From NCBI GenBank assembly GCA_030149325.1, contig JASBRS010000102.1, positions 1 through 37,412 on the forward strand: 37,412 nucleotides of DNA, in the 5' to 3' direction. Below the pieces are notes generated by a model. It ran no database searches and was not told the DNA's origin. It saw only the letters and a list, made by a program, of their open reading frames with translations. Position 1 is the stretch's first letter. Each line of letters starts with the position of its first letter. Origin of the DNA: Deinococci bacterium. Its GTDB lineage: Bacteria; Deinococcota; Deinococci; Deinococcales; Trueperaceae. This document shows positions 9,331 through 36,143 of the stretch, in pieces. The position numbers and the translations under genes are program-made.

Positions 9331-9382
9331 GTCGGCGACCTCGGGTCGCGGGCTCGACCACGACGGGGCCGCCGAGGTGGAC

Positions 9383-10582
9383 GTGAACACCGCCATCATC
9401 CGCCAACTGAACGTCTCCCGCGTGTTCCATGCGCTGCGGGAGCACCCCGGCAGCTCGCAGCGCGAGCTCGCCGCCCTGACCGGGCTCGACCGCGCCACCC
9501 TGTCGGTGGTGGTGGGCCAGCTCGAGGCGCAGACGCTGCTCGACCGACGGCCGCGCCCACGGCGGGGACGGGCCGGCCGACCGGAGGAGGCGCTGTACCT
9601 GTCGCCGGCGGGCGGCTGGTTCGTGGGGGTGCGCCTCGACCCGCGCGAGTTGCATGTGGTGGCGACGACCGTCGACGCACGCCCGGTGGCGGTGCGCACG
9701 GTGCCGGGCAGCTCCGACGTGGAGGACGCGGTGGGCCACGTCGGGAGCGTGGTGCGGGAGCTCGCCGAGGCGCACGGGGTCGGGCTCGAGCGCGTCCGCG
9801 GCGTGGGCGTGGGGGTCGCCGGCCTGATGGGGCGGGAGGGCCACCTGGCGCTGGGGCCGAACCTGGGCTGGCACGACGTGCCGATCCTGGAGCTGCTGCG
9901 GCAGGAGCTGGCGGTGCCCGTCTACGTCGACAACGACACCAAGGCGACGGCCCTGGCGGAGACGCTGTTCGGGTCGTGCAAGAACGTCATGGACTTCGTT
10001 CTGGTGATCGCGCACGCCGGCATCGGCGGGGCGCTCTACCAGGGGGGCATGCTGCAGCGCGGCTGGCACGGCTACGCCGGCGAGTTGGGGCACGTCAAGG
10101 TCGTCGAGGGGGGCCGGCGCTGCGGTTGCGGCGGCCAGGGCTGCCTGGAGGCGTACGCCTCCGAGCCGGCGGTGCTGCAGCGCCTGGCCGAGCGCGGGCG
10201 CCCCTGCGCCGACCTGACCGAGGTCGCGGCGCTCGCGCAGGACGGCGATGCGGCGGCCGTCGAGGTGCTCGAGGACGCCGCCGACAAGCTCGGGCGGGTG
10301 CTGGCGACCGTCGTCAACCTCACCAACCCCCAGCGGGTGGTGGTGGGCGGCGGCTTCGCACGCGCCGCCGCGGTGACGCTGCCGGCGTTGGAGCGTGCCC
10401 TCGATCGCGACGTGCTCGCCCCGACGCGCGCGGACGTCGAGGTGGGGGTGTCGGCGTTGGGGCAGGAGGAGGTCGCCATGGGCGGCGTGGCGCTCGCCAT
10501 GGAGGGCTTCCTGTCGCTGCCGAGCTGGCTGTCGACGGGGCACTTCCGGCAACGCCGGCACGGAGCGCCGCTGGCGTCCTGA
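9383..10582 (+). CDS. ROK-family transcriptional repressor
   Basis: A 399-residue ROK protein of the XylR/NagC/Mlc repressor type. The N-terminal winged helix covers about residues 1-65 (REHPGSSQRELAALTGLDRATLSVVVGQLEAQTLL). It is followed by a sugar-kinase-like fold with VGVGVAGLMG, VYVDNDTKATALAE and the ROK zinc motif: His237 with Cys247, Cys249 and Cys254 in CGCGGQGCLE. ROK repressors usually release their operator when a sugar binds. The sugar ABC transporter begins 254 bp downstream on the same strand behind a palindromic site, so it is the obvious target and its sugar the likely inducer. The GTG at 9383 is chosen because GAGGTGG lies just before it. Confidence 0.92.
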   Translation: MNTAIIRQLNVSRVFHALREHPGSSQRELAALTGLDRATLSVVVGQLEAQTLLDRRPRPRRGRAGRPEEALYLSPAGGWFVGVRLDPRELHVVATTVDARPVAVRTVPGSSDVEDAVGHVGSVVRELAEAHGVGLERVRGVGVGVAGLMGREGHLALGPNLGWHDVPILELLRQELAVPVYVDNDTKATALAETLFGSCKNVMDFVLVIAHAGIGGALYQGGMLQRGWHGYAGELGHVKVVEGGRRCGCGGQGCLEAYASEPAVLQRLAERGRPCADLTEVAALAQDGDAAAVEVLEDAADKLGRVLATVVNLTNPQRVVVGGGFARAAAVTLPALERALDRDVLAPTRADVEVGVSALGQEEVAMGGVALAMEGFLSLPSWLSTGHFRQRRHGAPLAS

Positions 10583-10628: not shown

Positions 10629-10657
10629 TTGACGCTCTCATGTGCCGGCAGTAGACT
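10629..10657 (+). promoter_or_regulatory. sigma70-type promoter of sugar ABC transporter operon
   Basis: TTGACG (10629-10634) and TAGACT (10652-10657) are 17 bp apart, the best promoter match in the window. Transcription would begin near 10664, leaving a leader of about 170 nt before the binding-protein gene. Confidence 0.75.
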
Positions 10658-10671
10658 CGGCATTGCTTCGA

Positions 10672-10691
10672 CAATCGATTTAATCCGATTG
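10672..10691. promoter_or_regulatory. palindromic operator, probably for the ROK repressor
   Basis: A 20-bp palindrome with perfect arms CAATCG and CGATTG around an AT-rich core (TTAA at the centre); 16 of 20 positions are symmetric. It sits about 8-28 nt downstream of the predicted transcription start, an ideal roadblock position. AT-rich centres are typical of ROK operators. Assignment to the adjacent ROK protein is inferred from position and architecture. Confidence 0.6.
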
Positions 10692-10738
10692 CCAGAGCTG
10701 GACGGCACTTCTGTGCACGCCACCACCTAGCGAGGGAC

Positions 10739-10836: not shown

Positions 10837-12000
10837 ATGCAGGTGAGAGCAGTCAAGAGCATCGGCCTGGTGATTGTCGTGGCGCTGCTGAGCGCGGTCT
10901 TCGCTCAGAGCGCGCAGGATCTCACCATCTCGTCGTTCAACGCCGACTTCACGGCGATGGCCGCGCTGAAGTCGCTGGCCGCGCAGGGGACCGGCAAGAT
11001 CGGTGTGCTGCTGCCGGAGACCACGACCTCGGCGCGCTACACCTCGTTCGACGAGCCGTACCTGAAGAAGGCGTTCGAGGCGGCCGGCCTGGCGAATGAT
11101 CAGTACATCATCACCAACGCCCAGGGCAGCGAGTCGAGCCAGCTCACGCAGGCCCAGGCCGACATCGCCCAGGGCGCGACGGTGCTGGTGGTGGACCCGA
11201 TCTCCTCGGGCGTCGGCGCCTCCATCGAGTCCTACGCCAAGTCCCGCGGCGTGCCGGTCATCGACTACGACCGCCTCACGCTCGGCGGCTCGCGTGACTA
11301 CTACGTCAGCTTCGACAACGTCGAGGTCGGCAAGCTCATCGGTCAGGGCATGATCGACTGCCTGAGCGCCTGGAACGTGCAGAAGCCCAACCTGCTGATC
11401 ATGCGCGGCGCCCCCACCGACAACAACGCCACCCTCTTCGCCCAGGGCTACGACAGCGTGCTGCAGCCGTACTTCACCTCCGGCCAGTACGTCAAGGTCG
11501 GGGAGCCGGCCGGCACCTGGGACCCCTCGGTGGCGCGTACGACCTTCGAGGAGCAGTACACCGCGCACTCCAACATCAACGCCGTGGTGACGCCCAACGA
11601 CGCCAACGCCAACGCGGTGATCTCCTACCTCAAGACCCTCAACGTGCCTGCCAAGACCTTCCCGACCACCGGTCAGGACGCGTCGCTGACGGGCCTCCAG
11701 AACGTGCTCTCGGGCTACCAGTGCGGCACCGTGTACAAGCCCATCTACCTCGAGGCCCAGGCGACGGCGGCCTTGGCCATCTTCCTGCGGGCCAACCAGA
11801 CCCCGCCGGCGGCGCTGGTCAACGGCACCACCAAGGACAGCCAGGCCAACATCGACGTGCCCTCGGTGCTCATGAAGCCGATCTGGGTGACCCCGGCGAA
11901 CATGGCGGCGACCGTGGTCAAGGACAACTTCGTCGACCCCGCGAAGCTGTGTGCAGGCAACATGGCACAGCAGTGTCAGGCCGCGGGCATCAAGAACTAG
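10837..12000 (+). CDS. sugar ABC transporter substrate-binding protein (XylF/RbsB class)
   Basis: A 387-residue periplasmic sugar-binding protein. A signal peptide (about residues 1-22, ending VFAQ) precedes the type I binding fold: IGVLLPETTTSARYTSFDEPYLKKAFEAAGL, then VIDYDRLTLGGSRDYYVSFDNVEVGKLIGQGM. The latter closely recalls E. coli XylF (YDR...YISFDN..VG). Pentose specificity, perhaps xylose, is therefore plausible but unproven, and I leave the gene unnamed. The ATG at 10837 has AAAGGTGA upstream; an in-frame GTG at 10828 is an alternative. It is the first gene of an operon with the ATPase (7-nt gap) and permease, controlled by the promoter and palindrome upstream. Confidence 0.9.
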   Translation: MQVRAVKSIGLVIVVALLSAVFAQSAQDLTISSFNADFTAMAALKSLAAQGTGKIGVLLPETTTSARYTSFDEPYLKKAFEAAGLANDQYIITNAQGSESSQLTQAQADIAQGATVLVVDPISSGVGASIESYAKSRGVPVIDYDRLTLGGSRDYYVSFDNVEVGKLIGQGMIDCLSAWNVQKPNLLIMRGAPTDNNATLFAQGYDSVLQPYFTSGQYVKVGEPAGTWDPSVARTTFEEQYTAHSNINAVVTPNDANANAVISYLKTLNVPAKTFPTTGQDASLTGLQNVLSGYQCGTVYKPIYLEAQATAALAIFLRANQTPPAALVNGTTKDSQANIDVPSVLMKPIWVTPANMAATVVKDNFVDPAKLCAGNMAQQCQAAGIKN

Positions 12001-12007
12001 GCTCCGG

Positions 12008-12820
12008 ATGACGGACGTGACGGCTCGGCCCCCCGAGGTGGGGGCCGAGCCGCTCCTTACACTGCGGGGGATCGAGAAGCACTTCGGGGCGGTGCAGGCC
12101 CTGGCCGGCGTCGACCTCGACGTCCCCTCCGGACAGGTGACCGCGCTGGTCGGCGACAACGGCGCGGGCAAGTCGGTGCTGGTCAAGACCATCGCCGGCA
12201 TCCACGAGCCCGACGGCGGCGAGATGCACTGGGAGGGCAGGCGTGTACGGGTGCGCAACCCGCGCGACGCCGCCGAGCTGGGGATCGAGGTCGTCTACCA
12301 GGACCTCGCCCTGTGCGACAACCTCGACATCGTGCAGAACATGTTCCTGGGCCGGGAGACGGTCCAGAACGGGCTGCTCGACGAGGACACCATGGAGCGC
12401 GAGGCCAGCCGCACGCTCGCCGACCTGCGGGTGCGCACCGTGCGCTCGGTGCGCATGCCCGTCTCGGCCCTGTCCGGCGGGCAGCGCCAGTCGGTGGCGG
12501 TCGCCAAGGCGGTGATGTGGAACTCCAAGCTGGTCATCCTCGACGAGCCCACCGCCGCCCTGGGGGTGGCGCAGACGCAGCAGGTGCTCGAGCTCGTGCG
12601 CCGGCTCGCCGATCGTGGGCTGGCGGTGATCATGATCTCGCACAACCTCAACGACGTCTTCGCCGTGGCCGACCGCTTGGCGGTGCTGCGGCTCGGTGTG
12701 ATGGTGGGCGCCGGTCCCGCCCGCGAGTTCGACTCGCGCCGGGCGGTCGAGCTCATGACCACCGGGCGGTCGTCGGACGGCCCGGCCCGCTCCGCCGGAG
12801 ATGACGAGGTGACGGCATGA
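12008..12820 (+). CDS. sugar ABC transporter ATP-binding protein, single domain
   Basis: A 270-residue ATPase with Walker A GDNGAGKSVLVK, Q-loop VVYQDLALCDNLDIVQNMFLG, signature LSGGQRQSVAVAKAV, Walker B LVILDEPTAALG and H-loop MISHN. It belongs to the carbohydrate-uptake-2 family, but has one nucleotide-binding domain and not the fused pair (about 500 residues) of XylG, RbsA or MglA. It therefore resembles FrcA-type systems and must act as a dimer. Its stop overlaps the permease start (ATGA). Confidence 0.94.
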   Translation: MTDVTARPPEVGAEPLLTLRGIEKHFGAVQALAGVDLDVPSGQVTALVGDNGAGKSVLVKTIAGIHEPDGGEMHWEGRRVRVRNPRDAAELGIEVVYQDLALCDNLDIVQNMFLGRETVQNGLLDEDTMEREASRTLADLRVRTVRSVRMPVSALSGGQRQSVAVAKAVMWNSKLVILDEPTAALGVAQTQQVLELVRRLADRGLAVIMISHNLNDVFAVADRLAVLRLGVMVGAGPAREFDSRRAVELMTTGRSSDGPARSAGDDEVTA

Positions 12821-14121
12821 CGGACCGCGAGGACCGCCGTACCCCGGACGGCTCCGAGCCCACGCGCCTGCTGGCCGGCGCCGACGATGCCAGCCCGCTG
12901 GCGGAGGCCCCCCACCAGACGGGCACCCTGGGAGAGCTGCTGACGGGCTGGTGGACGCAGATCCGCGCCGGCCAGTCGGGCGTCCTGCCGGTCGTGGTGG
13001 GCGTGGTGCTGATCGGCCTCATCTTCCAGACCCAGAACGCGCACTTCCTGTCGGCGGGCAACCTCGTGAACCTGCTGGTGCAGGGGTCGGTGTTCATGCT
13101 CATCGGCATGGGCGAGGTGTTCATCCTGCTGCTGGGCGAGATCGACCTGTCGCTCGGCTACGTCGCCGGCATCGGCGGCGTGGTGGTGACCGAACTGGTG
13201 CAGGCCAGCCCCGGCTGGCCGTGGTGGGCGGCGGTGCTGGCCGCACTGGCGGCGACCGCCGCCATCGGCGCGCTGCAAGGGACGCTGGTGACGCGCTTGC
13301 GCCTGCCGTCGTTCGTGGTGACGCTCGCCGGCCTGCTCGGTTGGCAGGGCGTGATGATCAGGCTGCTCGGCGTGGGCGGCACCATCCCCATCCCCAACGA
13401 GACCGTCAACAACTTCGCCAACGGCACCCTAAGCCGCGCCGGCGGCTGGATCGTGAGCGCCGTGGTGGTGGTGCTGTTCGGGGTGACGACGCTGCTGCGC
13501 GACGAACAGCGCCGACGCTCCGGGCTGGCCGCGCCGAGCCGCTTGCTGACCGGCCTCAAGATCGTGGGGGTCGCGGCCGCCGGCGCCGGCCTGGTGATGC
13601 TGAGCAACGTCGACCGCGGCGTGGCGCGCTTCCCCTTGCACGGCATGCCGTGGGTGTTCCTGATCGTCTTCGGGGTTCTGGCGCTGTGGTCGCTGGTGCT
13701 CGGCAGGACGCGCTTCGGTCGCTACATCTACGCCATCGGCGGCAACGCCGAGGCGGCGCGCCGTGCGGGCATCTCGCTGGCGTGGATCCGGACGCTGGCC
13801 TTCACCCTGGCAGCGATGACGGCGGGGATCGGCGGCATCGTCTACGCCTCGCGGCTGCGCTCCATGTCGACCAGCTTCGACGGCGGCACCATCGTGCTCT
13901 ACGTGGTGGCCACCGCCGTCATCGGCGGCACCAGCCTCTTCGGCGGTCGCGGCCACCCCCTGCACGCGGTGCTGGGCGGCGTGGTCATCGCCGCCATCGT
14001 CAACGGCATGGCGCTCTTGGGGTTGAGCGCCGCCATCCAGCTCATCGCCACCGCCCTGGTGTTGCTGGCGTCGATCACGGTGGACGTGGTGGTGCGGCGG
14101 AGGGGCGACACCGCGCACTGA
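12817..14121 (+). CDS. sugar ABC transporter permease (XylH/RbsC class)
   Basis: A 434-residue inner-membrane permease of the ribose/xylose importer family. About 45 polar residues precede the first transmembrane segment. The family signature GSVFMLIGMGEVFILLLGEIDLSLGYVAGIGGVVV follows at about 90-125, and the cytoplasmic coupling motif IGGNAEAARRAGISLAWIRTLAFTLAAMTAGIGGIVYASRL lies at about 307-347. Around ten hydrophobic segments are visible. It is translated by ATGA overlap with the ATPase gene. It ends 21 bp from the convergent oxidoreductase gene, with no clear terminator between them. Confidence 0.94.
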   Translation: MTDREDRRTPDGSEPTRLLAGADDASPLAEAPHQTGTLGELLTGWWTQIRAGQSGVLPVVVGVVLIGLIFQTQNAHFLSAGNLVNLLVQGSVFMLIGMGEVFILLLGEIDLSLGYVAGIGGVVVTELVQASPGWPWWAAVLAALAATAAIGALQGTLVTRLRLPSFVVTLAGLLGWQGVMIRLLGVGGTIPIPNETVNNFANGTLSRAGGWIVSAVVVVLFGVTTLLRDEQRRRSGLAAPSRLLTGLKIVGVAAAGAGLVMLSNVDRGVARFPLHGMPWVFLIVFGVLALWSLVLGRTRFGRYIYAIGGNAEAARRAGISLAWIRTLAFTLAAMTAGIGGIVYASRLRSMSTSFDGGTIVLYVVATAVIGGTSLFGGRGHPLHAVLGGVVIAAIVNGMALLGLSAAIQLIATALVLLASITVDVVVRRRGDTAH

Positions 14122-14142: not shown

Positions 14143-15288
14143 TCAGGCGCGTGGGCGGACGTTCACCCACGCGCCGCCCTGTGCCGCACTGGCCACGACG
14201 GCCTCGATGAAGTCGACCCCGCGCGCGCCGTCGGCCAGCCCCGGGTAGTCGGCGCCGGCGTCGCCCCGGATGGCCGCGGCAACGCCCGCGTAGACGTTGG
14301 CGAAGGCCTCCAGGAAGCCCTCCGGGTGCCCCGGGGGGACGCGCGAGGCGGCGGCCGCGGCGGCGCCCAGGTAGGGCTGGCCACGGCTCCGCAGCTGTGC
14401 GGGCTCGTCGAGGGTGGCCAGCCACAGGCGGTTCGGCTCCTCCTGGCGCCAGCTCAGGCTGCCGCGCTCGCCGTGCACCCGCAGGCGCAGATCGTTCTCG
14501 GCGCCGATCTCCACCTGGCTGACCAGCAGCACGCCGCGCGCGCCGCCGCGGAAACGCAGCAGCACGGTGGCGTCGTCGTCCAGCGCGCGCCCGGGCACGA
14601 AGGTGGTGAGCTCCGCGCGCACCGCCTCCACCTCCAGGCCGGTGACGGTCGCCAGCAACTGCTCGGCGTGGCTGCCGATGTCGCCGATGGCGCCGCCGGG
14701 ACCGGAGCGCGCCGGATCGGTACGCCACGCGGCCTGACGGTTCTCGCCGCCGGCCTCCAGCGGCGTCGCCAGCCACCCCTGGCGGTACTCCACCACCACC
14801 TTGCGGAGCGGACCCAGCACCCCGTCGCGCACCAGCCTGCGGGCCTCCTTCACCATGGGATAGCCGCTGTAGTTGTAGGTGACGGCGAACACCACGCCGC
14901 GTTCGCGCGCGACCCGCACCAGCTCGTCCGCCTGCGCCGAGCTGTGCACCAGCGGCTTGTCGCACACCACGTGGAAGCCGGCGTCGGCGAAGGCGCGCGC
15001 GATGGGGAAGTGCAGGTGGTTGGGGGTGACGATGCTGACCGCCTCGATGCGCTGCTCCGGCGGCAGGGCCAGCTCCCCGTCGAGCATCGCCTGCCAGCTC
15101 GGATACCCGCGTGGCAGCCCCAGCTCGGCGGCGCTCGCCAGCGCTCGCTCGGGGGTGGAGGCGAGCGCCCCGGCCACCAGCTCGAAGGCGCCGTCGAGGC
15201 GTGCGGCGGCGCGGTGCACGGCGCCGATGAAGGCGCCTGCACCGCCACCCACCATGCCGAGGCGAACGGGCACGGCGGGCTCCCTCAT
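14143..15288 (-). CDS. Gfo/Idh/MocA-family oxidoreductase
   Basis: A 381-residue NAD(P)-dependent sugar or cyclitol dehydrogenase. The Rossmann glycine motif is [18 protein letters not shown] (residues 8-25). The substrate-site motif reads CDKPLV where EKP is usual, and [13 protein letters not shown] supplies the conserved Asp and His of the catalytic GxxxDxGxH segment. The ATG at 15288 has a strong GGAGGAGG site and overlaps the stop of the isomerase gene by 4 nt, so the two work together, probably oxidising and isomerising a sugar or inositol derivative. The pair is convergent with the sugar ABC operon, which may import its substrate. Confidence 0.92.
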
Positions 15289-16310
15289 GCGCCCTCCTCC
15301 GGGCCCCCGTCGCGTCGGGCGAAGGCGGCATCGAAGGCGGCCCCGGCAGGCTCGAAGTCGAGCGCGCGGACCCGAGCGGCGGCCTCGCTGGCGCCGTGGA
15401 TGCGGTCCATGCGCGCGTCCTCCCACTCCACCGACAGCGGTCCGCGGTAGCCGATGTCGCCCAGCGCGGCGACGATCGCCTCGAAGTCGACGTCGCCCCG
15501 GCCCAGGCTGCGGAAGTCCCAGGTCCGGCGCGGGTCGCCGAAGGAGGTGTGCCCCCCGAACACCCCCACGCTGCCGTCGCCCCGTCCCCACGCCACGTCC
15601 TTCATGTGCACGTGCGCGATGCGGTCGGGGAAGCGGTGCAGGAACGCCACGTAGTCCACGCCCTGGTAGGCGAGGTGGCTGGGGTCGTAGTTGAAGGCGA
15701 AGCGCGGGTGGTGCTCGACAGCATCCAGCGCGCGCTCGGCGCTGGCGATGTCGAAGGCGATCTCGGTGGGGTGGACCTCGAGGGCGAAGGTCACGTCCTC
15801 GGCGTCGAACGCCGCCAGGATCGCTTCGAAGCGCTCGGCGAAGTCGTCGTAGCCGCGCTGCCACAGCTCCTGGCCGGTGGGCGGGAAGGGGTAGAGGCTG
15901 TGCCAGATCGAGCTGCCGGTGAAGCCGGTGACGACGTCGACGCCCAGCCGGCGCGCCGCCCGGGCGGTGGCGATCATCTCGTCGGCCGCCCGCCGGCGCA
16001 CGCCTTCGGGATCGCCGTCGCCCCACACCCGCTCCGGCAGGATGGCGCGGTGGCGCTCGTCGATGGGGTCGCAGATGGCCTGCCCGACCAGGTGCGCCCC
16101 GATCGCGAGGCAGTTCAGGCCGTGGCGCTCGAGCAGCGCCCGCCGCTCGGCAACGTAGCCCGGGTCGCTCAGCAGCTTCGGGACGTCGAGGTGATCGCCC
16201 CAGGTGCACAGCTCCAGGCCGTCGTAGCCCATCTGCCGAGCCAGCGGCGCCAGCTCGGCCAGGGGCAGGTCGGCCCATTGTCCGGTGAACAGCGTGACGG
16301 GTCGGGGCAT
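15285..16310 (-). CDS. sugar phosphate isomerase/epimerase family TIM barrel
   Basis: A 341-residue member of the AP-endonuclease-2/xylose-isomerase-like TIM-barrel family, which includes IolE, IolH and ketose epimerases. Putative metal ligands are visible in order: Glu in [13 protein letters not shown], Asp and His in [15 protein letters not shown], His in HVHMKDV and Glu in [11 protein letters not shown]. It is longer than the usual 270-300 residues because of inserted loops. It heads a two-gene operon with the Gfo/Idh/MocA dehydrogenase. The exact reaction cannot be read from sequence. Confidence 0.9.
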
Positions 16311-16358: not shown

Positions 16359-16976
16359 TCAGGGCAGGCCGAACCCCGGCGGCAGCGACACGCCCACGAG
16401 GAGCCGGGTGACGTCGATCTGGAGTTGCCCGGGGGCCGAGGCCGAGCCCTGCACCGCGACGCCGATGCGGAACGAGCCGCTCTGGATGCGGGCCAGCGCC
16501 GCGGCGTGGCTGGCGGCGTCGATCGCGAAGGAGGCGGTGACCTGACCCGTCTGGCTGGCGGTGAGCGCCGGGACGTTGGCGCTGGCCACGGCGTACTGCG
16601 ACTGGAACACGTCGGCGGCGGAGGCATCGGCCACGTACAGGGTGGCGGTGCCGGCGCCGATGTCGGTGGTCGGCGTGAGGTCGGCCGCCAGGTCGAGGCT
16701 GAGGCTGTCGACCGCGGCGATGGCGCTCGAGGGGACGCCGAGCGAGGTCAGGTCGATGAGGGCGCCGCCGCTGGGGTTGCTGGAGTTCGGCGGCAGGTAG
16801 AGGGTGACGGGGCCGCCCGTGTAGGACACCGTGGCCTGGGTGTTGGCCGCGCCCAGGAACGGCACCAGGTCGGCCTGCACCTTCAGGGCGGTGTGCGTCG
16901 AGCAGCCGCTGAGGACCGCGGTCAGGGCCAGCGCGAGGACGACGGGAGCGAGGGTACGCGTACGGAGCAGGTTCAT
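16359..16976 (-). CDS. small lipoprotein of unknown function
   Basis: A 205-residue predicted lipoprotein. The signal peptide ends in a clear lipobox (VLSGC, Cys about residue 25). The mature part is rich in Ser, Thr, Ala and Val with a beta-strand pattern (ATVSYTGGPVTLYLPPNSSNPSGGALIDLTSLG), followed by alternating hydrophobic stretches and LLVGVSLPPGFGLP at the end. I recognise no enzymatic motif. It starts 11 nt after the stop of the outer-membrane barrel gene, so the two are an operon and may form an envelope complex. The start ATG has a GGAAG-like site from the spacer. Confidence 0.75.
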   Translation of the reverse strand: MNLLRTRTLAPVVLALALTAVLSGCSTHTALKVQADLVPFLGAANTQATVSYTGGPVTLYLPPNSSNPSGGALIDLTSLGVPSSAIAAVDSLSLDLAADLTPTTDIGAGTATLYVADASAADVFQSQYAVASANVPALTASQTGQVTASFAIDAASHAAALARIQSGSFRIGVAVQGSASAPGQLQIDVTRLLVGVSLPPGFGLP

Positions 16977-16987
16977 GGCGTCCTTCC

Positions 16988-18328
16988 TCACAGTCCGAAG
17001 GCGAGCGAAGCGGCCACGCCGAAGGCCTGGTGGTCGGTGAAGGGGGAGCGGTGCGTGGTCAGCGCGACGTCGATGCCCACGGGGCCGGCATCGAAGCCGC
17101 CGCCCAGGCCGAGACGCAGCCCGTCCTGGTAGCCCACGCCGGCGCGGGCGGCGATCGGACCGAAGCGCGCTTCGGCACCGAGGTGGCTGGCGAACCCGCC
17201 CGACAGGTCGAGGTCGCCGTCGGCCGCGACCAGCAGCCGCATGCCGGGCACGCTGAGGACGTCGGACGGCACGTCGAGCGCCAAGTTGGCCGCGACGCGC
17301 ACGTGGCGGGCGTAGAGGACCTCCTGGACGGTGCCCAACGGCGTGCTGGTGCTGCTGCTCTGGTCGGCCTGCAGCTGCGTCTCGTCGAGGTTCCACACCA
17401 TCACGCCGAGGTGGCGCACGGAGGCGCCGGCGGTGATGGTGCCGGCCGGGCTGGGGAGGGTGAGCGCCAGCCCCAACGCGGCCTCGCCGCCGTACCCCAC
17501 GGTGCCGTTGGTCAGGCCGCCGAGGGCGGTGGTGCCGCTGTAGCTGTAGAGGACGTTGCCGGTGTAGTTCCCGCTGCTGTCCTGCTCGGCCTGCGCCTGT
17601 CCCTGCAGGTCGAGGCTGGCACGGGCGAGCCCGGCCACCGCCGAGCCCTGGACGCCGGCGTAGAGCTGCCCGCCGCCCAACGCCGCGGCCGGGACCGGGA
17701 GGGCGAGCGCGGTGCCGACGTCGATCGCCACCCCGGCCTCGGCATCGGCCCGGAGTGTGGCGGAGGCGCTGGGGCTGCCGCCCTGGAAGACCTGCGCGGT
17801 GTCGGTGCCGGGGACGAGGTCGGCGTGGACGTGCAGGAACGGCCGGACGGCCAGGTGGACCGGGCCCAGGCTGCCTCCGAGCGGCAGATCGAGGCCTTCG
17901 CTGAGGCGCGCCGGTTGGGCCAGGCGCATCGGCGATCCTCCCTGGAAGGCCACGCTCAGACCGTTGGCGTCGACGCTGACGGTGACCTGGTCGGGGCTGA
18001 TGGCGGGGTCGAGCAGGTAGAGGCCGAGGTTGCTGGCCTGGTCGAAGGTGCTCAGGGCGTCGAAGTTGGGGCCGGTGGGGTCCCAGTAGTCGCGGGTGAC
18101 GGCGCTCAGGGCACCCAGGGGCAACGTCAGGCTGGCGCCTCCCCCCGGGATGGCGGCGAAGGCGGGGTTGACGTCGGCGGCGGAGGGACCGGCCACGCGC
18201 ACGCCGCCCATGCCCAGGGCGCGGGCGTCCTGCGCGTGGGCGACGGGGAGGGCCGTCAGCAGCAGGGCTGCCAGCGCGACCGCGCGCCCCACGCTGCGGG
18301 CCGGGGATCGGGGAGGTCGAGGCATCAT
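16988..18328 (-). CDS. predicted outer-membrane beta-barrel protein
   Basis: A 446-residue exported protein. The signal peptide (RAVALAALLLTALPVAHAQ) is followed by ARALGMGGVRVAGPSAADVNPAF, the start seen in OMPP1/FadL and TraF-like barrel families, where the N-terminal segment plugs the barrel. The rest alternates short amphipathic strands with Gly, and ends in ASLAFGL, a plausible C-terminal barrel strand. The tandem ATG at 18328 has AAGGAG six nt upstream; a longer frame toward 18484 is not needed. Possible roles are hydrophobic substrate uptake or a structural porin; neither is shown. It is divergent from the hydroxyproline dehydratase gene. Confidence 0.72.
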   Translation of the reverse strand: MMPRPPRSPARSVGRAVALAALLLTALPVAHAQDARALGMGGVRVAGPSAADVNPAFAAIPGGGASLTLPLGALSAVTRDYWDPTGPNFDALSTFDQASNLGLYLLDPAISPDQVTVSVDANGLSVAFQGGSPMRLAQPARLSEGLDLPLGGSLGPVHLAVRPFLHVHADLVPGTDTAQVFQGGSPSASATLRADAEAGVAIDVGTALALPVPAAALGGGQLYAGVQGSAVAGLARASLDLQGQAQAEQDSSGNYTGNVLYSYSGTTALGGLTNGTVGYGGEAALGLALTLPSPAGTITAGASVRHLGVMVWNLDETQLQADQSSSTSTPLGTVQEVLYARHVRVAANLALDVPSDVLSVPGMRLLVAADGDLDLSGGFASHLGAEARFGPIAARAGVGYQDGLRLGLGGGFDAGPVGIDVALTTHRSPFTDHQAFGVAASLAFGL

Positions 18329-18473: not shown

Positions 18474-19481
18474 GTGGAGTTCACGCGCAGTTACACGACC
18501 GTCGATGCCCATGCCGCGGGGGAGCCCCTGCGCATCGTGACCGGGGGCGTGCCGCCGATCCCCGGCGCCAGCATCCTGGCCAAGCGTCGCTGGGTCCGCG
18601 AGCACCTCGATCACGTGCGCACCACCCTGATGTGGGAGCCGCGCGGTCACGCCGACATGTACGGCTGCTACCTCACCGAGCCGGTGACGACGGCGGCCGA
18701 CGTCGGCGTCATCTTCATGCACAACGAGGGCTACAGCGACATGTGCGGGCACGGCATCATCGCGCTGGCCACGGTGATGGTGGCGCAGGGCATGGTGCCG
18801 CGGGAGGTCCCCGAGACGCGGGTCGGCATCGACAGCCCGGCGGGCTTCGTGGAGGCGTGGGTGGGGTGGGACGGCCGCCGCGTCGGCGAGGTCCGTTTCG
18901 TCAACGTGCCGTCGTTCCTGCTGCACCGCGACGTCACCGTCACGACGCCGAGCGCTGGGGAGGTGACCGTCGACGTCGCCTTCGGCGGGGCCTTCTACGC
19001 CTACCTCGAGGCGTCCGCCGTCGGGTTGGTGCTCGGCCGCGATCCCGTCGAGCGCTTCCAGCAGCTCGGCGACGAGATCAGCCGCGCGGTGCGCACCGCC
19101 GTCGACGTGGTGCACCCGCTCGAGCCCGAACTGCGCGGCATCTACGGCACCATCTTCGCCGGCCCGCCGCGCCGCCCCGACGCCGATCAGGTCAACGTCT
19201 GCATCTTCGCCGATCGCCAGGTCGACCGCTCGCCGACCGGCACCGGCACCGCCGGGCGGGTGGCGCAGCTCGTGGCCCGCGGTCGCCTGGGGCTGGGCCA
19301 GCGGCTCGGCAACGAGAGCATCGCCGGGACGCTGTTCACCGGCACGGCGCTGCGCCGCACCGAGGTCGGTGCGGTGGAGGCGGTGGTCCCCGAGGTCGCG
19401 GGGCGCGCGGCCATCGTGGGCTTCAACACGTGGCTGGTGGAGGAGGGGGACGAGGTGGGGGAGGGGTTCCTGGTGCGCTGA
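18474..19481 (+). CDS. trans-3-hydroxy-L-proline dehydratase-like (proline racemase family)
   Basis: A 335-residue proline racemase superfamily protein. The first catalytic residue is Cys91 in MCGHGIIAL. At the second position the motif DRSPTGTGT has Thr255 instead of the Cys found in proline racemase and 4-hydroxyproline epimerase. In this superfamily a Cys/Thr pair marks trans-3-hydroxy-L-proline dehydratase, which makes 1-pyrroline-2-carboxylate, a precursor of proline. The GTG at 18474 has GGAGGGG at 18462; an ATG at 18444 overlaps the candidate -10 box. It is followed after 184 bp by a peptide-type ABC transporter, which suggests uptake and use of hydroxyproline-containing peptides (inference). 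Confidence 0.88.
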   Translation: MEFTRSYTTVDAHAAGEPLRIVTGGVPPIPGASILAKRRWVREHLDHVRTTLMWEPRGHADMYGCYLTEPVTTAADVGVIFMHNEGYSDMCGHGIIALATVMVAQGMVPREVPETRVGIDSPAGFVEAWVGWDGRRVGEVRFVNVPSFLLHRDVTVTTPSAGEVTVDVAFGGAFYAYLEASAVGLVLGRDPVERFQQLGDEISRAVRTAVDVVHPLEPELRGIYGTIFAGPPRRPDADQVNVCIFADRQVDRSPTGTGTAGRVAQLVARGRLGLGQRLGNESIAGTLFTGTALRRTEVGAVEAVVPEVAGRAAIVGFNTWLVEEGDEVGEGFLVR

Positions 19482-19544
19482 GGGGCCGGGCCCCGCTGGC
19501 GACCGGAGCCCCGGAAGGATTGGTCGGACCGTTCGACCTTATGG

Positions 19545-19550
19545 TAGAAT
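19545..19550 (+). promoter_or_regulatory. candidate promoter of peptide ABC operon (-10 TAGAAT)
   Basis: TAGAAT lies in the only AT-rich patch between the dehydratase and the permease gene. TTGGTC at 19520-19525 could serve as -35, but with a 19-bp spacer. A leader of about 110 nt would follow, containing the inverted repeat at 19571-19615. Confidence 0.45.
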
Positions 19551-19570
19551 TTCCACGGCTATACAGGAGC

Positions 19571-19615
19571 GGGGCCGTACGCCTCGGGTGCGCCATCGCC
19601 CCGACGTACGGCCCC
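19571..19615 (+). promoter_or_regulatory. long inverted repeat in leader of peptide ABC operon
   Basis: GGGGCCGTACG (19571-19581) and CGTACGGCCCC (19605-19615) are perfectly complementary 11-bp arms around a 23-nt loop. In RNA this would be a stable stem in the 5' leader; as DNA it could be an operator. There is no following U-run, so it is not an ordinary terminator. Confidence 0.5.
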
Positions 19616-19665
19616 CGGACCGTCCAAGGCCCCGACAACCGATGCCATGAGCCCGGGGAGACGAT

Positions 19666-20571
19666 GTGACCGACACGCTGCAGGCGCAGCTCGACGATAG
19701 CCCGGGTACCGCGCGTCCGGTCCGACGGCGTAGCTGGTGGCGCCGCCTGGCCGCGGATCGCACCGGGATGCTCGGCCTCGTGCTGGTGGTGTTGGTGGTG
19801 GGGGCCGCGGCGCTGGCGCCGGTGCTCGCACCCTTCGACCCGAACCGGCAGTTCAACGACGGCCTCAGTGCGTACGGGATGCCCCGTCCGCCCGATCCCA
19901 CCTACCTGCTGGGCACCGACCTGCTGGGGCGTGACCTGCTCTCGCGCATCCTCTTCGGGGCCCGCATCAGCCTCGTGATCGGCCTGGTGGCGAACGGCGT
20001 GGCCGTCGCCATCGGAGCCGTCGTCGGCGTGGTGGCGGGCTACTTCCGAGGCTGGCTCGGCACCCTGCTGATGCGCTTCACCGACGTCATGACGGCGTTC
20101 CCGGCGCTGGTGCTGGCGATCGCCCTAGCCGCCATCCTGCGTCCGAGTCTGTGGATCGTCGCGCTGGTGATCGCCCTGGTCAACTGGGTCTACGTGGCGC
20201 GTGCGATCTACGCTCAGGTGCTGGCCATCCGCGAGCAGCCCTACATCGAGGCCACCGCCGCCCTGGGGATCCCCACCTTCGGGGTCCTGCTGCGCCACGT
20301 GGTCCCGCAGCTCACCCTCAGCCTCCTGGTCTTCGCCACCCTGGGCATCTCCACCAGCGTGTTGTTGGAGGCGTCGCTCTCCTACCTGGGGGTCGGGGTG
20401 CAGCCGCCCACGCCCTCGTGGGGCGGCATCATCAACGCCAGTCAGTCGTACCTGACGACGGCCCCCTGGCTGGTGCTGTTCCCGGGGCTGGCGATCATCG
20501 TCACCTCGGTCGGCTTCAACCTCTTCGGCGAGGCGCTCCGCGACGCCCTCGACGTCGGGGGTCAGCGGTGA
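19666..20571 (+). CDS. dipeptide/oligopeptide ABC transporter permease (DppC type)
   Basis: A 301-residue permease. It begins with a cytoplasmic tail and a first membrane segment (GMLGLVLVVLVVGAAALAPVLAPF). The motif YLLGTDLLGRDLLSRILFGARISLVIG is diagnostic of DppC/OppC/NikC proteins. The EAA coupling loop (YIEATAALGIPTFGVLLRHVVPQ) and SYLGVGVQPPTPSWG follow. The GTG start at 19666 follows GGGGAG. It precedes the DppB-type gene with a 4-nt overlap, the reverse of the usual dppB-dppC order. Confidence 0.94.
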   Translation: MTDTLQAQLDDSPGTARPVRRRSWWRRLAADRTGMLGLVLVVLVVGAAALAPVLAPFDPNRQFNDGLSAYGMPRPPDPTYLLGTDLLGRDLLSRILFGARISLVIGLVANGVAVAIGAVVGVVAGYFRGWLGTLLMRFTDVMTAFPALVLAIALAAILRPSLWIVALVIALVNWVYVARAIYAQVLAIREQPYIEATAALGIPTFGVLLRHVVPQLTLSLLVFATLGISTSVLLEASLSYLGVGVQPPTPSWGGIINASQSYLTTAPWLVLFPGLAIIVTSVGFNLFGEALRDALDVGGQR

Positions 20572-21494
20572 CCGGCTACGTCGCTCGGCGCGTCCTCCAG
20601 GGCCTCGGGGCGGTCCTCTGCGTCGTCACCGTGACGTTCGTGCTGACCTACATCGTGCCCGTGAATCCGGCGCAGATGATCGCCGGGCCCAGTGCCACGC
20701 CCGACGTGGTCGCGAGCATCGGCCATCAGCTGGGCCTCGACCAGCCGCTGCCGGTGCGTTACGTCCGCTACCTGTGGGGGCTGGCGCACCTCGACCTGGG
20801 CCGCTCGTACGCCCAGCGCACCCAGGTCGGCGCGCTGGTCGCGAGCCACCTGCCGGTGACCCTGAAGCTGATGCTCACCGGCATCGCCTGCGAGCTGTTG
20901 ATCGGCATCCCCATCGGCATCCTGTCCTCGGTGGCTCCCGGCAGTTGGTGGGACCGCGTCCTCACCCTGGTGGCCTTCATCGGCGTGTCGACGCCGCAGT
21001 TCGTGGTCGGGCTGGTGCTCATCTACCTGCTGGCCTACCTGCTGCCCTGGTTCCCCCTCGGCGGGTATGGCAACGGCGACTTGGGCCACTACGTCCTCCC
21101 GGCACTGTCGGTGGGCTTCGCCGGAGCCGGCTGGTACGCGCGGGTGTTGCGATCGTCGCTGGTGGAGGTATTGCGACAGGACTACGTCCGCACGGCTCGT
21201 GCCAAGGGGGTCCGCCCGCGCTCGCAGGTGTTCCGCCACGCCCTACGCAACGCCATGCTCCCCGTCATCGCCCTGGTCGGCCTCGACCTCGGGGTGTTCA
21301 TGGGCGGTGTGATCGTGGTGGAGCAGGTGTTCGCGCTCCCCGGCCTGGGGCAGATGATGTGGCAGGCCATCCAGGTCCTCGACATCCCGGTGATCATGGG
21401 CGGCGTTCTGGTCACGGCGATCTTCGTCGTGATCGGGAACCTTCTCGCCGACCTGATCTACCCGTTCCTCGATCCCCGGATCCAGTACCGCTAG
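20568..21494 (+). CDS. dipeptide/oligopeptide ABC transporter permease (DppB type)
   Basis: A 308-residue permease with six expected transmembrane segments. It opens VTGYVARRVLQGLGAVLCVVTVTFVLTYIVPVNPA, typical of DppB/OppB. The coupling loop LRQDYVRTARAKGVRPRSQVFRHALRNAMLPVI and the end motif LADLIYPFLDPRIQYR are also diagnostic. The GTG start overlaps the DppC stop (GTGA), so both half-channels are made in equal amounts. No ATPase genes of this transporter lie in the window, so it must borrow them from another locus. Confidence 0.94.
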   Translation: MTGYVARRVLQGLGAVLCVVTVTFVLTYIVPVNPAQMIAGPSATPDVVASIGHQLGLDQPLPVRYVRYLWGLAHLDLGRSYAQRTQVGALVASHLPVTLKLMLTGIACELLIGIPIGILSSVAPGSWWDRVLTLVAFIGVSTPQFVVGLVLIYLLAYLLPWFPLGGYGNGDLGHYVLPALSVGFAGAGWYARVLRSSLVEVLRQDYVRTARAKGVRPRSQVFRHALRNAMLPVIALVGLDLGVFMGGVIVVEQVFALPGLGQMMWQAIQVLDIPVIMGGVLVTAIFVVIGNLLADLIYPFLDPRIQYR

Positions 21495-21581
21495 CGAAGG
21501 AGGCGTGCCCCTGGCGAGAGGCCCCAAGGCAGCAGCGTTTCGTCGTCCCCCAGCACATCTCGGAGCGTGAAGGAGAGCACC

Positions 21582-23183
21582 ATGAACAGGCGCAGTTGGA
21601 TCCTCGCATGGGCGGTGGTGATGGCCTCGGCCAGCGCCGCGTTCGCCGCCAACAGCAAGGTCGTGTTGACGTTCCAGAACGACATCTCCACCCTCGACCC
21701 GGCCATCGGCTACAACTGGGACAACTGGTCGATGATCCAGGCCATCTTCGACGGCCTCATGACCTACAAGCCGGGTACGACCGAACTCCAGCCTGCCCTC
21801 GCCAGCTCCTACACCGTGTCGGACGACGGGCTGACCTACACCTTCGACTTGCGGCAGGGCGTCAAGTTCACGGACGGTGAGGCCTTCGACGCGCAGGACG
21901 TGAAGTTCTCGTTCGAGCGCATGCTCGACCCCGCCACCCAGAGCCCCGGCGTCGGCTTCTTCACCGGGATCGAGGGCGCCCAGGCGTTCATCGACGGCAA
22001 GGCCAAGGACGTCAGCGGCATCCAGGTGCTGTCGCCGAGCCAGGTGCGCTTCACGCTGACGGCGCCGGACGCCACCTTCCTCAACAAGCTGGCGCTGAAC
22101 TTCGCATTCGCCGTCCCGCCGCAGGCGGTCGCCAAGTGGGGCAAGGACTTCGGCCACCACCCCGTGGGCACGGGCGGCTTCTCGATGCAGGAGTGGGTGC
22201 CGGGTCAGCGCTTGGTGCTGGTCAAGAACCCCGACTACTTCGTGGCGGGCGAACCCAAGGTCGACGAGCTCGAGTTCCAGTTCGGCGTCGATCCCAACGT
22301 GGCCTTCCTGCGACTGCAGCGCGGCGAGGTCGACATCCTCGGCGACGGCATCCCCTCCTCCCAGTTCGCCAAGGTCATGAGCGACGCCAAGCTCAAGCAG
22401 CAGGTGGTGTCGTCGGACCAGATCGAGACCAGCTTCGTCGCCCTCAACACCACCATGAAGCCGTTCGACAGCGTCGAGGTACGGCAGGCGCTCAACATGG
22501 CCGTCGATCGCACGCAGGTGTTGCGCGTCATCAACAACCGCGCGGGTGCAGCCGACCAGATCCTGCCCCCGACGATGCCGGGCTACAACCCCGACTACAA
22601 GGGCTTCCCCTACGACCCCGCCCAGGCCAAGCAACTGCTTGCCAAGGCCGGCTACCCCGACGGCTTCAGCACCGAGCTGTACACCAGCAACGTCGATCCC
22701 AACCCACGCATCGCGCAGGTTCTCCAACAGCAGCTCGCCCAGATCGGTGTCAAGGTCGACATCCGGTCGCTGTCGCCGAGCGCGGTGATCGACGCGGCTG
22801 GGCAGGGCAAGACGCCCATGGTGTGGTCGGGCGGCATGGCCTGGCTCGATGACTACCCCGACCCCAACGACTTCTGGTGGCCCATCCTGGCGTGCGACAG
22901 CGCCGTCCCCGGCGGCTGGAACTGGGCCCGCTACTGCAACAAGGCGCTCGACGCCCAGGGCCAGAAGGCCGACGCCATGGTGCAGCTCAGCCAGCACGAC
23001 GCCCGCATCGCGCTGTGGCAGGACGTCTTCACGCAGGCCTCGCAGGACGCCCCGTGGATCCCGCTGTTCAACGAGCGCAGCTACGTCATGCACTCGCCGC
23101 GCATGGGCGGGATCGGCTTCAAGGTGGCCGGCATCTACACCCCGGTGAACTACAAGGAGATCGAGATTGTCCAAGGGCAGTAG
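21582..23183 (+). CDS. peptide/nickel-type ABC transporter substrate-binding protein
   Basis: A 533-residue exported binding protein of the DppA/OppA family. The signal peptide (residues 1-24, WAVVMASASAAFA) has no lipobox. The fold starts VVLTFQNDISTLDPAIGYNWDNWSMIQAIFDGLMTY and contains LASSYTVSDDGLTYTFDLRQGVKFTDGEAFDAQDVKFSFERMLDP, hallmarks of this family. Near the C-terminus DDYPDPNDFWWPIL is the usual DYPDP motif. The ATG at 21582 has AAGGAG upstream. Its 3' end overlaps the amidase gene by 17 nt, which ties the ligand to that enzyme. Ligand class (peptide, amide or other) is not certain. Confidence 0.94.
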   Translation: MNRRSWILAWAVVMASASAAFAANSKVVLTFQNDISTLDPAIGYNWDNWSMIQAIFDGLMTYKPGTTELQPALASSYTVSDDGLTYTFDLRQGVKFTDGEAFDAQDVKFSFERMLDPATQSPGVGFFTGIEGAQAFIDGKAKDVSGIQVLSPSQVRFTLTAPDATFLNKLALNFAFAVPPQAVAKWGKDFGHHPVGTGGFSMQEWVPGQRLVLVKNPDYFVAGEPKVDELEFQFGVDPNVAFLRLQRGEVDILGDGIPSSQFAKVMSDAKLKQQVVSSDQIETSFVALNTTMKPFDSVEVRQALNMAVDRTQVLRVINNRAGAADQILPPTMPGYNPDYKGFPYDPAQAKQLLAKAGYPDGFSTELYTSNVDPNPRIAQVLQQQLAQIGVKVDIRSLSPSAVIDAAGQGKTPMVWSGGMAWLDDYPDPNDFWWPILACDSAVPGGWNWARYCNKALDAQGQKADAMVQLSQHDARIALWQDVFTQASQDAPWIPLFNERSYVMHSPRMGGIGFKVAGIYTPVNYKEIEIVQGQ

Positions 23184-24108
23184 CATCCGCACGATCCACA
23201 GCGCCCACCACCACTTCGGTTGGGACAACGCCCTGGCGCCGGTGCTCACCGTCGCGCCCGGCGAGGAGGTCGACTTCGACATCCTCGACTCCTCCGGTGG
23301 GCAGCTGACCGAGGCCTCGGGGGTCGCGGACGTGGCGGCGCTCGACTTCGAGCGCGTCAACCCCGTTACCGGACCGGTGGTCGTCGACGGCGCGGAGCCC
23401 GGCGACGCCCTGGCCGTGACCGTCGTCGACTTCGAGGAGAGCGCCTGGGGCTGGACCGCCATCATCCCCGGCTTCGGGCTGCTGGCCGACGACTTCCCCG
23501 ACCCCTACCTGCACATCTCCCACTACGACGCCGAGCGGGTGCGCTTCGCAGGCGGCATCGAGCTCCCGACGGTGCCCTTCCCGGGCACCATCGGGGTGGC
23601 GTTGGCGGAGCGGGGGCTGCACTCGGTGGTGCCGCCACGCCGCGTGGGCGGCAACCTCGACGTCCACGACCTCACTCGCGGCAGCACCCTCTACCTGCCG
23701 GTGGAGGTGCCCGGCGCGCTGTTCTCGGTGGGGGACACCCACGCCGCACAGGGTGACGGCGAGGTGTGCGGCACCGCGGTGGAGACGGCCATGCGCACGC
23801 GCCTGCGCTTCGACCTCGTCAAGGGCGCCGAGCTGCCGGCGCCGCAGTTCCGCATGGCGCGGCCCGCGGCCGGCTTCGCGCCGGCCGGCAAGGGCTTCTA
23901 CGCCACCACCGGGGTCGGTCCCGACCTGATGGAGGCGGCCAAGGACGCCGTGCGGGCGATGATCGACCACCTGGGCCGCGATTACGCTCTGGCGCCCGAG
24001 CTCGCCTACTGCCTGTGCAGCGTCGCCGCCGACCTGCGCATCAGCGAGATCGTCGACCAGCCCAACTGGGTGGTGTCGGCGCACCTGCCGCTGGGCATCT
24101 TCGTCTAG
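23167..24108 (+). CDS. acetamidase/formamidase family protein
   Basis: A 313-residue protein of the FmdA/AmdA family, which releases ammonia from formamide or short amides. Family landmarks are HSAHHHFGWDNALAPVLTVAPGEEVDFDILDSSGGQ at the start, and GDTHAAQGDGEVCGTAVET in the centre, where most members have GDxHAAQGDGE. TTG at 23167 is the start: AAGGAG (23154-23159) sits 7 nt before it, inside the end of the binding-protein gene, so the two are translationally coupled. The coupling suggests that the transporter delivers a substrate, or precursor, of this hydrolase. The family also contains enzymes of unknown specificity. Confidence 0.9.
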   Translation: MSKGSSIRTIHSAHHHFGWDNALAPVLTVAPGEEVDFDILDSSGGQLTEASGVADVAALDFERVNPVTGPVVVDGAEPGDALAVTVVDFEESAWGWTAIIPGFGLLADDFPDPYLHISHYDAERVRFAGGIELPTVPFPGTIGVALAERGLHSVVPPRRVGGNLDVHDLTRGSTLYLPVEVPGALFSVGDTHAAQGDGEVCGTAVETAMRTRLRFDLVKGAELPAPQFRMARPAAGFAPAGKGFYATTGVGPDLMEAAKDAVRAMIDHLGRDYALAPELAYCLCSVAADLRISEIVDQPNWVVSAHLPLGIFV

Positions 24109-35096: not shown

Positions 35097-36143
35097 TCAT
35101 TCCCAGCCGTCCAGGCTCCGGCGCAGGCGCCGGCGGTCGGACCGGGCGTAGCGGCGCGCCATGTCGAGGGTGGCGTGGCGCAGGTGGTCCTGGACCTGGC
35201 CGAGGTCGCCGGTCTGACGGTAGAGACGGGTGCCGGCCGAGTGCCGCAGGGCGTGGACGCCCTTGAAGGTCACCTCGGCGCGCTCGCACAGGCGCCGCAC
35301 CCGGTTGAACACGCCGTACTGCGAGCGCAGCTCGAGCACCCGACCGTCGCCGCCGGCCTGCGCCAGGCGCGCACGCCGGTAGCCGGCCAGCTCGCCCGCC
35401 AGCTTGGGGGTGAGCGCCACCAGGGCGGACTTGCCCCCCTTGCCGCCGCGCACCAGCAGCTCGCGCTTGTCGGCGGCCACCTCGTCCCAACGCAGCCGCA
35501 GCATCTCGCTGACGCGCAGGCCGGCGTGCGCGCCGAGCAGCACGATCACGCGCTCCTGGGGTTCGCCGGCGGCCAGCATCTCGATGAGCTCGTAGTCGGT
35601 GTAGGAGCGTGCGCCCTGGACGTCCTCGGCGCGCGTGGTCTGGCGCCCCATGCGCACGTCGCGGAAGGGGTCGGCGTCGGTCGCGCCCGCCCAGGCCAGG
35701 GCGTCGTAGAGGGCGCGGGCAGCGGCCACCTTGAGCTGGACGGTCGCCGGGGCCAGCGGCCCGGGCTTGACGCGCCGGCCGCGGCGCCGACCGCCGGCGT
35801 CGTCCTCGACCAGGGGAGCGCGGTCGCCGGCGCGCAGGCGCTGGACGTAGTGCTCTCCGGCGTCGCGGCTGGGGCGCAGCAGGTTCTCGTCCTGCCACAA
35901 CGCCACCAGGTCGAGGATGCCGCGCCGGTAGGCGCGACGCGTATGGGCGCTGGTCGCCACCCCCGACGCTCCGTGCAGGGTGAGGTGGGCCTCGACCAGC
36001 TCCCACAGGGCGTCCCCGTCGCGCTCGCTGGCCGCGCGCACGGCGTGCCGCCGGAGGGCGGCGTCGTCGAGTCGGCGCAGGCGCTCGACGCGCTCCAGGG
36101 GGCTGGCGCTCGAGAGCTCGAGCGAGGTCACGGGACCGGCCAT
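35097..36143 (-). CDS. tyrosine recombinase (XerC/D or phage integrase family)
   Basis: A 348-residue site-specific recombinase. The N-terminal SAM-like DNA-binding domain spans about residues 45-155. The catalytic set is complete: Arg210 (HAGLRVSEML), Lys235 or Lys238 in the beta-hairpin (VRGGKGGKSA), His297 and Arg300 (HALRHSAGT), His323 (LRHATLDMARRY) and nucleophile Tyr332. The region at 105-127 is an unusual Arg/Gly/Asp-rich insertion. ATG 36143 is preferred to GTG 36176. Neighbours are housekeeping genes and no att repeats, phage genes or cargo are visible. It could be a domesticated Xer-like enzyme or the remnant of an old element. Confidence 0.9.
   Translation of the reverse strand: MAGPVTSLELSSASPLERVERLRRLDDAALRRHAVRAASERDGDALWELVEAHLTLHGASGVATSAHTRRAYRRGILDLVALWQDENLLRPSRDAGEHYVQRLRAGDRAPLVEDDAGGRRRGRRVKPGPLAPATVQLKVAAARALYDALAWAGATDADPFRDVRMGRQTTRAEDVQGARSYTDYELIEMLAAGEPQERVIVLLGAHAGLRVSEMLRLRWDEVAADKRELLVRGGKGGKSALVALTPKLAGELAGYRRARLAQAGGDGRVLELRSQYGVFNRVRRLCERAEVTFKGVHALRHSAGTRLYRQTGDLGQVQDHLRHATLDMARRYARSDRRRLRRSLDGWE

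Follow-up and report, generated by a model that had tools for sequence, protein, structure and literature searches.

What kind of control element lies between a ROK-family repressor gene and the XylF-type sugar transporter genes that follow it, and does the repressor bind there? The window, that is, the whole 37,412-nt stretch of Trueperaceae DNA that we analyzed, was first read as holding a ROK operator on a 20-bp palindrome with CAATCG/CGATTG arms, just after a promoter of the form TTGACG-N17-TAGACT. Much of that description stands. A search of the whole window for sigma-70-like promoters finds this one and no other (shuffled sequences yield 0.3–0.5), the repressor gene lies upstream and the gene for the XylF-like protein downstream, and the palindrome CAATCGATTTAATCCGATTG has the arms described, with 8 of 10 symmetric pairs and a GC content of 35%, compared with 72% for the window.

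As a palindrome, however, this sequence is unremarkable. Among the roughly 37,400 20-mers of the window, 82 are symmetric at 8 or more of their 10 pairs and perfect 6-bp outer arms occur in 32, so that about 0.5 palindromes of such quality are expected in the intergenic stretch. Because equally symmetric inverted repeats are common in the window, symmetry alone is not sufficient to call an operator. What is distinctive is the AT-richness of the sequence and its place at the transcription start. Across the 3.04-Mb genome, CAATCGATTTAATCCGATTG is the one exact instance of CAATCG-N8-CGATTG. This pattern had been expected to be conserved before orthologous transporter genes, but it is absent upstream of the transporter in all eight Trueperaceae relatives examined, and those transporters also have no neighboring ROK gene.

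Table. Positions of the genes and predicted control elements in the window.
Feature	Position	Strand	Basis or remark
ROK-family repressor gene (winged HTH + ROK domain)	9377..10582	+	Pfam, reciprocal best hit
-35 TTGACG	10629..10634	+	sole promoter-like match in window
-10 TAGACT	10652..10657	+	17 nt after -35; predicted +1 at about 10663–10665, from spacing
Predicted ROK operator TTGCTTCGA-CAA-TCGATTTAA	10663..10683 (extended 10661–10685)	.	matrix, shuffles, genome-wide consensus; overlaps predicted +1
Originally proposed palindrome CAATCGATTTAATCCGATTG	10672..10691	.	shares right half of operator, plus everted third half-site
Everted third half-site TTAATCCGA	10680–10688		within palindrome CAATCGATTTAATCCGATTG
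XylF-like sugar-binding protein	10837..12000	+	Peripla_BP_4; alternative earlier start GTG 10828 possible
Single-domain sugar ABC ATPase	12008..12820	+	ABC_tran; 73–75% identical to relatives
Sugar ABC permease	12817..14121	+	BPD_transp_2; GguB-like
GFO/IDH/MocA oxidoreductase	14143..15288	-	orthologue of last gene of relatives' ROK-linked operon; 62–67% identity
AP_endonuc_2 TIM-barrel protein	15285..16310	-	orthologue of gene in relatives' ROK-linked operon; 69–77% identity

The protein encoded upstream matches the Pfam ROK domain (PF00480, 1.3e-53) and an N-terminal winged helix-turn-helix (MarR_2, 1e-9, residues 13–66), both above the cut-off, and it can be aligned over almost its whole length to each of Mlc, Lmo0178 and 1z05. 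The ROK-domain motifs ExGH and CxCGxxGCxE can be read in the translation as GELGH and CGCGGQGCLE. The protein's matches to the NagC and Mlc equivalogs reach 167 and 157 bits, against cut-offs of 650 and 530. A dozen genomes of the family carry orthologues at 44–52% identity. The protein of genome G007 has the window ROK protein as its reciprocal best hit, at 52% identity vs 35% for the runner-up in the window's genome. The recognition-helix region is almost unchanged, reading LDRATLS in the window and LDRATVS in genomes G005 and G007.

In the family genomes these orthologues lie head to head with an Rbs-type operon. Where the contig permits, the order of that operon is RbsA-type ATPase, permease, RbsB-type binding protein, AP_endonuc_2 TIM-barrel protein and GFO/IDH/MocA oxidoreductase. 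In the divergent ROK/RbsA intergenic regions a single AT-rich element is strongly conserved, and the inverted repeat common to them has the ROK-type consensus TTAGTTYGA-N3-TCRAAYTAA. A T-rich left arm and an A-rich right arm are the layout known for ROK operators elsewhere; the RokB operator is TTTGTTC-N11-GAACAAA, and those of Mlc and NagC are laid out similarly (PMC4856308). The element is a near-perfect inverted repeat in G017 (TAAGTTTGA-CAG-TCAAACTAA) and in G005 (TTAAATTGA-CTG-TCAAATTAA), and G007 and G032 have TCGAACTAA as the right half. Genera g12 and g16 have retained the right half while the left half has drifted. When we left each site out of the matrix in turn, every orthologue site ranked first in its own region. 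In the relatives the operator overlaps the promoter of the ROK gene itself, and not a transporter start. A side observation is that the left half in the g12 and g16 regions now reads TTCGAACGA or TTTCATCGT (L148, L149, L153, L154, L157, L158, L161), as if the second contact of the dimer had moved or gone.

We scanned the window with a matrix made from the sites of G005, G007, G032 and G017 only, with no window sequence included and with the register of the aligned sites picked by eye. The top score fell at 10661–10685 (20.1 bits on the plus strand and 20.4 bits on the minus strand), and the next non-overlapping score among the 74,776 positions scanned was -3.5. Shuffling the 25-mer site gave P of about 1e-5 and shuffling the surrounding 50-mer gave P of at most 3e-4, so AT-rich composition does not account for the score. 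The consensus TTARTTYGANNNTCRAAYTAA, allowing up to three mismatches, found one site in the 3.04-Mb genome, at 10663–10683, and the reversed-pattern control found none. The window operator has three mismatches to this consensus, and its left half matches at 7 of 9 positions. The consensus was worded with the window already seen, so the matrix is the cleaner test. The specificity of the motif rests on the GC-rich genomes, because in the AT-rich genomes of the family the consensus count is no better than that of the reversed control. Counting the motif across the family to discover a regulon was uninformative in the AT-rich genomes. No second operator was found before the window's ROK gene or before its catabolic operon, and the site was not found at any other xylFGH examined in the family.

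From these comparisons, there is very probably a ROK operator where the XylF-type transporter operon begins, as the original prediction had it, with the axis at 10673 and not at 10681.5, going by the operators of the orthologues. That prediction was sound in kind and displaced by about 8 bp in detail; tested for conservation, the CAATCG motif fails and a different motif that overlaps it passes. The pair appears to be an ordinary ROK repressor and operator, and what is new is the motif predicted for this orthologue group. This provides one ROK group of the Trueperaceae (Deinococcota) with a concrete operator motif, in place of the CAATCG motif. The literature titles and abstracts searched, with few subscription journals among them, described no ROK operator for Deinococcota.

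It is unlikely that the ROK protein binds CAATCG-N8-CGATTG itself, around 10681.5. The arms of that palindrome are exact and unique in the genome and its inner half-sites resemble ROK half-sites, but they stand in everted order, and neither their order nor their spacing is like that in any ROK orthologue's operator. Its absence before orthologous transporters and the frequency of such palindromes in the window count against it as well. We also considered that the site belongs to another regulator, whether a further ROK paralogue or a protein of the LacI type, and that the adjacent ROK gene is incidental. The window's genome does have three further ROK matches, and other Trueperaceae xylFGH operons have no ROK gene next to them. 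However, the motif came from orthologues of the adjacent gene, which the paralogues match far worse (at most 35% identity), and the one site in the genome adjoins that gene. We judge binding by another regulator to be very unlikely.

Our main reading, to which we give a probability of about 80%, is that the ROK protein encoded upstream binds TTGCTTCGA-CAA-TCGATTTAA and keeps the xylFGH-type operon from being initiated until a sugar-type ligand releases it. A ROK dimer would sit on the inverted repeat over the predicted transcription start and would block initiation directly. A sugar or sugar-derived ligand would then bind in the ROK domain, where GELGH and CGCGGQGCLE are kept, and the repressor would come off. 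The match of the site is a matter of comparison; binding, repression, the position of the start and the ligand are what we infer.

The palindrome could instead work as RNA, forming the first hairpin of a folded 5' leader through which expression is tuned. The leader at 10664–10730 folds with a z of -4.5 and forms a hairpin GCUU...CAAUCG/CGAUUG...GAGC, and the leaders of several relatives also begin (T/C)GCTTCGGG, with that of L037 folding at a z of -3.6. The structures vary between relatives, though, with z just -0.2 to -1.6 in three others, Rfam has no match in the window leader and none above the gathering score in the relatives, and the likeness to ROK operators would have to be a coincidence. 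A role in the transcript therefore seems to us most improbable. No Rfam riboswitch was a convincing match in the leader.

A few other leader features were seen along the way. In relatives L036–L039 and L041, about 190–160 nt before the xylF start codon, the (T/C)GCTTCGGG leader start comes soon after the -10 box, except in L038, and is followed by a hairpin with the loop (G/A)CCC(T/C)GA(T/C)G and a stem that varies by lineage. TTCGGG and the hairpin loop could pair, and one lineage group may have an RNA element here in its leaders. We rejected TTCGGG...CCTGATG as a conserved RNA element; it was seen in xylF leaders from a single lineage group, a search upstream of the other XylF relatives did not find it, and the pattern occurs genome-wide in the family, mostly in unrelated places. 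K-mers shared upstream of 61 XylF-relative groups were just GC-rich background words, and ATTGCTTCGAC, shared with Trinickia, was within chance given the number of comparisons.

The two catabolic genes of the relatives' operon are both in the window, convergent to xylFGH, and the AP_endonuc_2 gene is the sole good copy in a search of its own genome. The relatives' RbsB-type binding protein has no orthologue (best 29%) in the window's genome, a 97%-complete draft, so that this absence is provisional, and the best counterpart of their ATPase there reaches 43%, vs 60–66% among the relatives. Relatives of the XylF-like protein occur at 71–76% identity in six other family genomes (G004, G007, G019, G025, G029, G036) and at 58–77% in many Proteobacteria and Actinobacteria. 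No ROK gene lies beside the family XylF relatives in the stretches examined, and in the wider collection one was near 3 of 80 loci (L093, L097, L120), at 28–30% identity. The simplest reading of these comparisons would be a conserved regulon in which the regulator and the two catabolic genes were kept and the Rbs-type transporter was exchanged for xylFGH. This suggests a small regulatory rewiring.

As in the window, the leaders of relatives L036, L037 and L039 place (T/C)GCTTCGGG 5–6 nt past a -10 box of the form TANNCT. This may reflect a shared promoter ancestor, with the left half-site already present in xylFGH leaders, but it is suggestive only. A further proposal, which we put forward tentatively and at somewhat worse than even odds, is that the original transporter gave way to a sugar ABC transporter from a different subfamily and that the operator was re-formed on the spot, at the promoter that the newcomer already had. 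In this view (T)TGCTTCGA, the left half-site, would have come from the TGCTTCGGG that stands at the matching position in relatives' xylFGH promoters with no adjacent ROK gene, and only the right half would be new. Two genes (210 and 434 aa) with no Pfam or NCBIfam match lie on the minus strand at 16359–18292, directly upstream of and codirectional with the isomerase-like and oxidoreductase genes.

Xylose had been named as the sugar to try first, and this choice is weakly founded. The XylF-like protein scores 183 bits against the xylose equivalog TIGR02634, with a cut-off of 390, and its closest PDB entry is the xylose-binding protein 3m9w. The closest PDB entries of the TIM-barrel protein are 2zds and then 8ro4, a 2-hydroxy-3-keto-glucal hydratase, and the nearest NCBIfam model of the oxidoreductase is levoglucosan dehydrogenase, far under its cut-off. 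Such oxidoreductase and TIM-barrel pairs act in the breakdown of 3-keto-glycosides and levoglucosan (PMC10628242, PMC7676230). With XylF below its cut-off and the two enzymes resembling that pair, a glycoside, anhydrosugar or 3-keto-sugar is at least an equal candidate for the ligand, and xylose is probably not the best first effector.

The arrangement has partial counterparts among known systems. XylR, a ROK protein of Firmicutes and Thermotoga, is likewise a local repressor of sugar uptake and catabolism that binds a promoter-region motif (PMC2873477, PMC3750489); the window differs in its catabolic genes (xylA and xylB were not found in the cluster), its GC-rich host, and its half-site TCRAAYTAA with a 3-bp spacer. 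Mlc/NagC and RokB are winged helix-turn-helix ROK proteins whose operators have T-rich left and A-rich right arms, as in the window (PMC4856308), but the arm sequence and spacing differ and the window has no PTS context. Oxidoreductase genes and TIM-barrel "sugar phosphate isomerase" genes also occur in Bacillus smithii, where they belong to a levoglucosan cluster, and in Agrobacterium, where they belong to the 3-keto-glycoside pathway (PMC7676230, PMC10628242), although the similarity of the window's enzymes to the characterized families is far below equivalog level. In Bacillus smithii these genes adjoin a sugar ABC transporter and a regulator, which is of the LacI family and not ROK (PMC7676230).

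Elsewhere in the window, genes for a proline racemase, oligopeptide-type ABC permeases with a binding protein, and an acetamidase/formamidase-family protein lie adjacent to one another at 18474–24108, perhaps as a cluster for amino-acid or amide uptake. A recombinase of the phage-integrase family is encoded at 35097–36143, near the end of the window.
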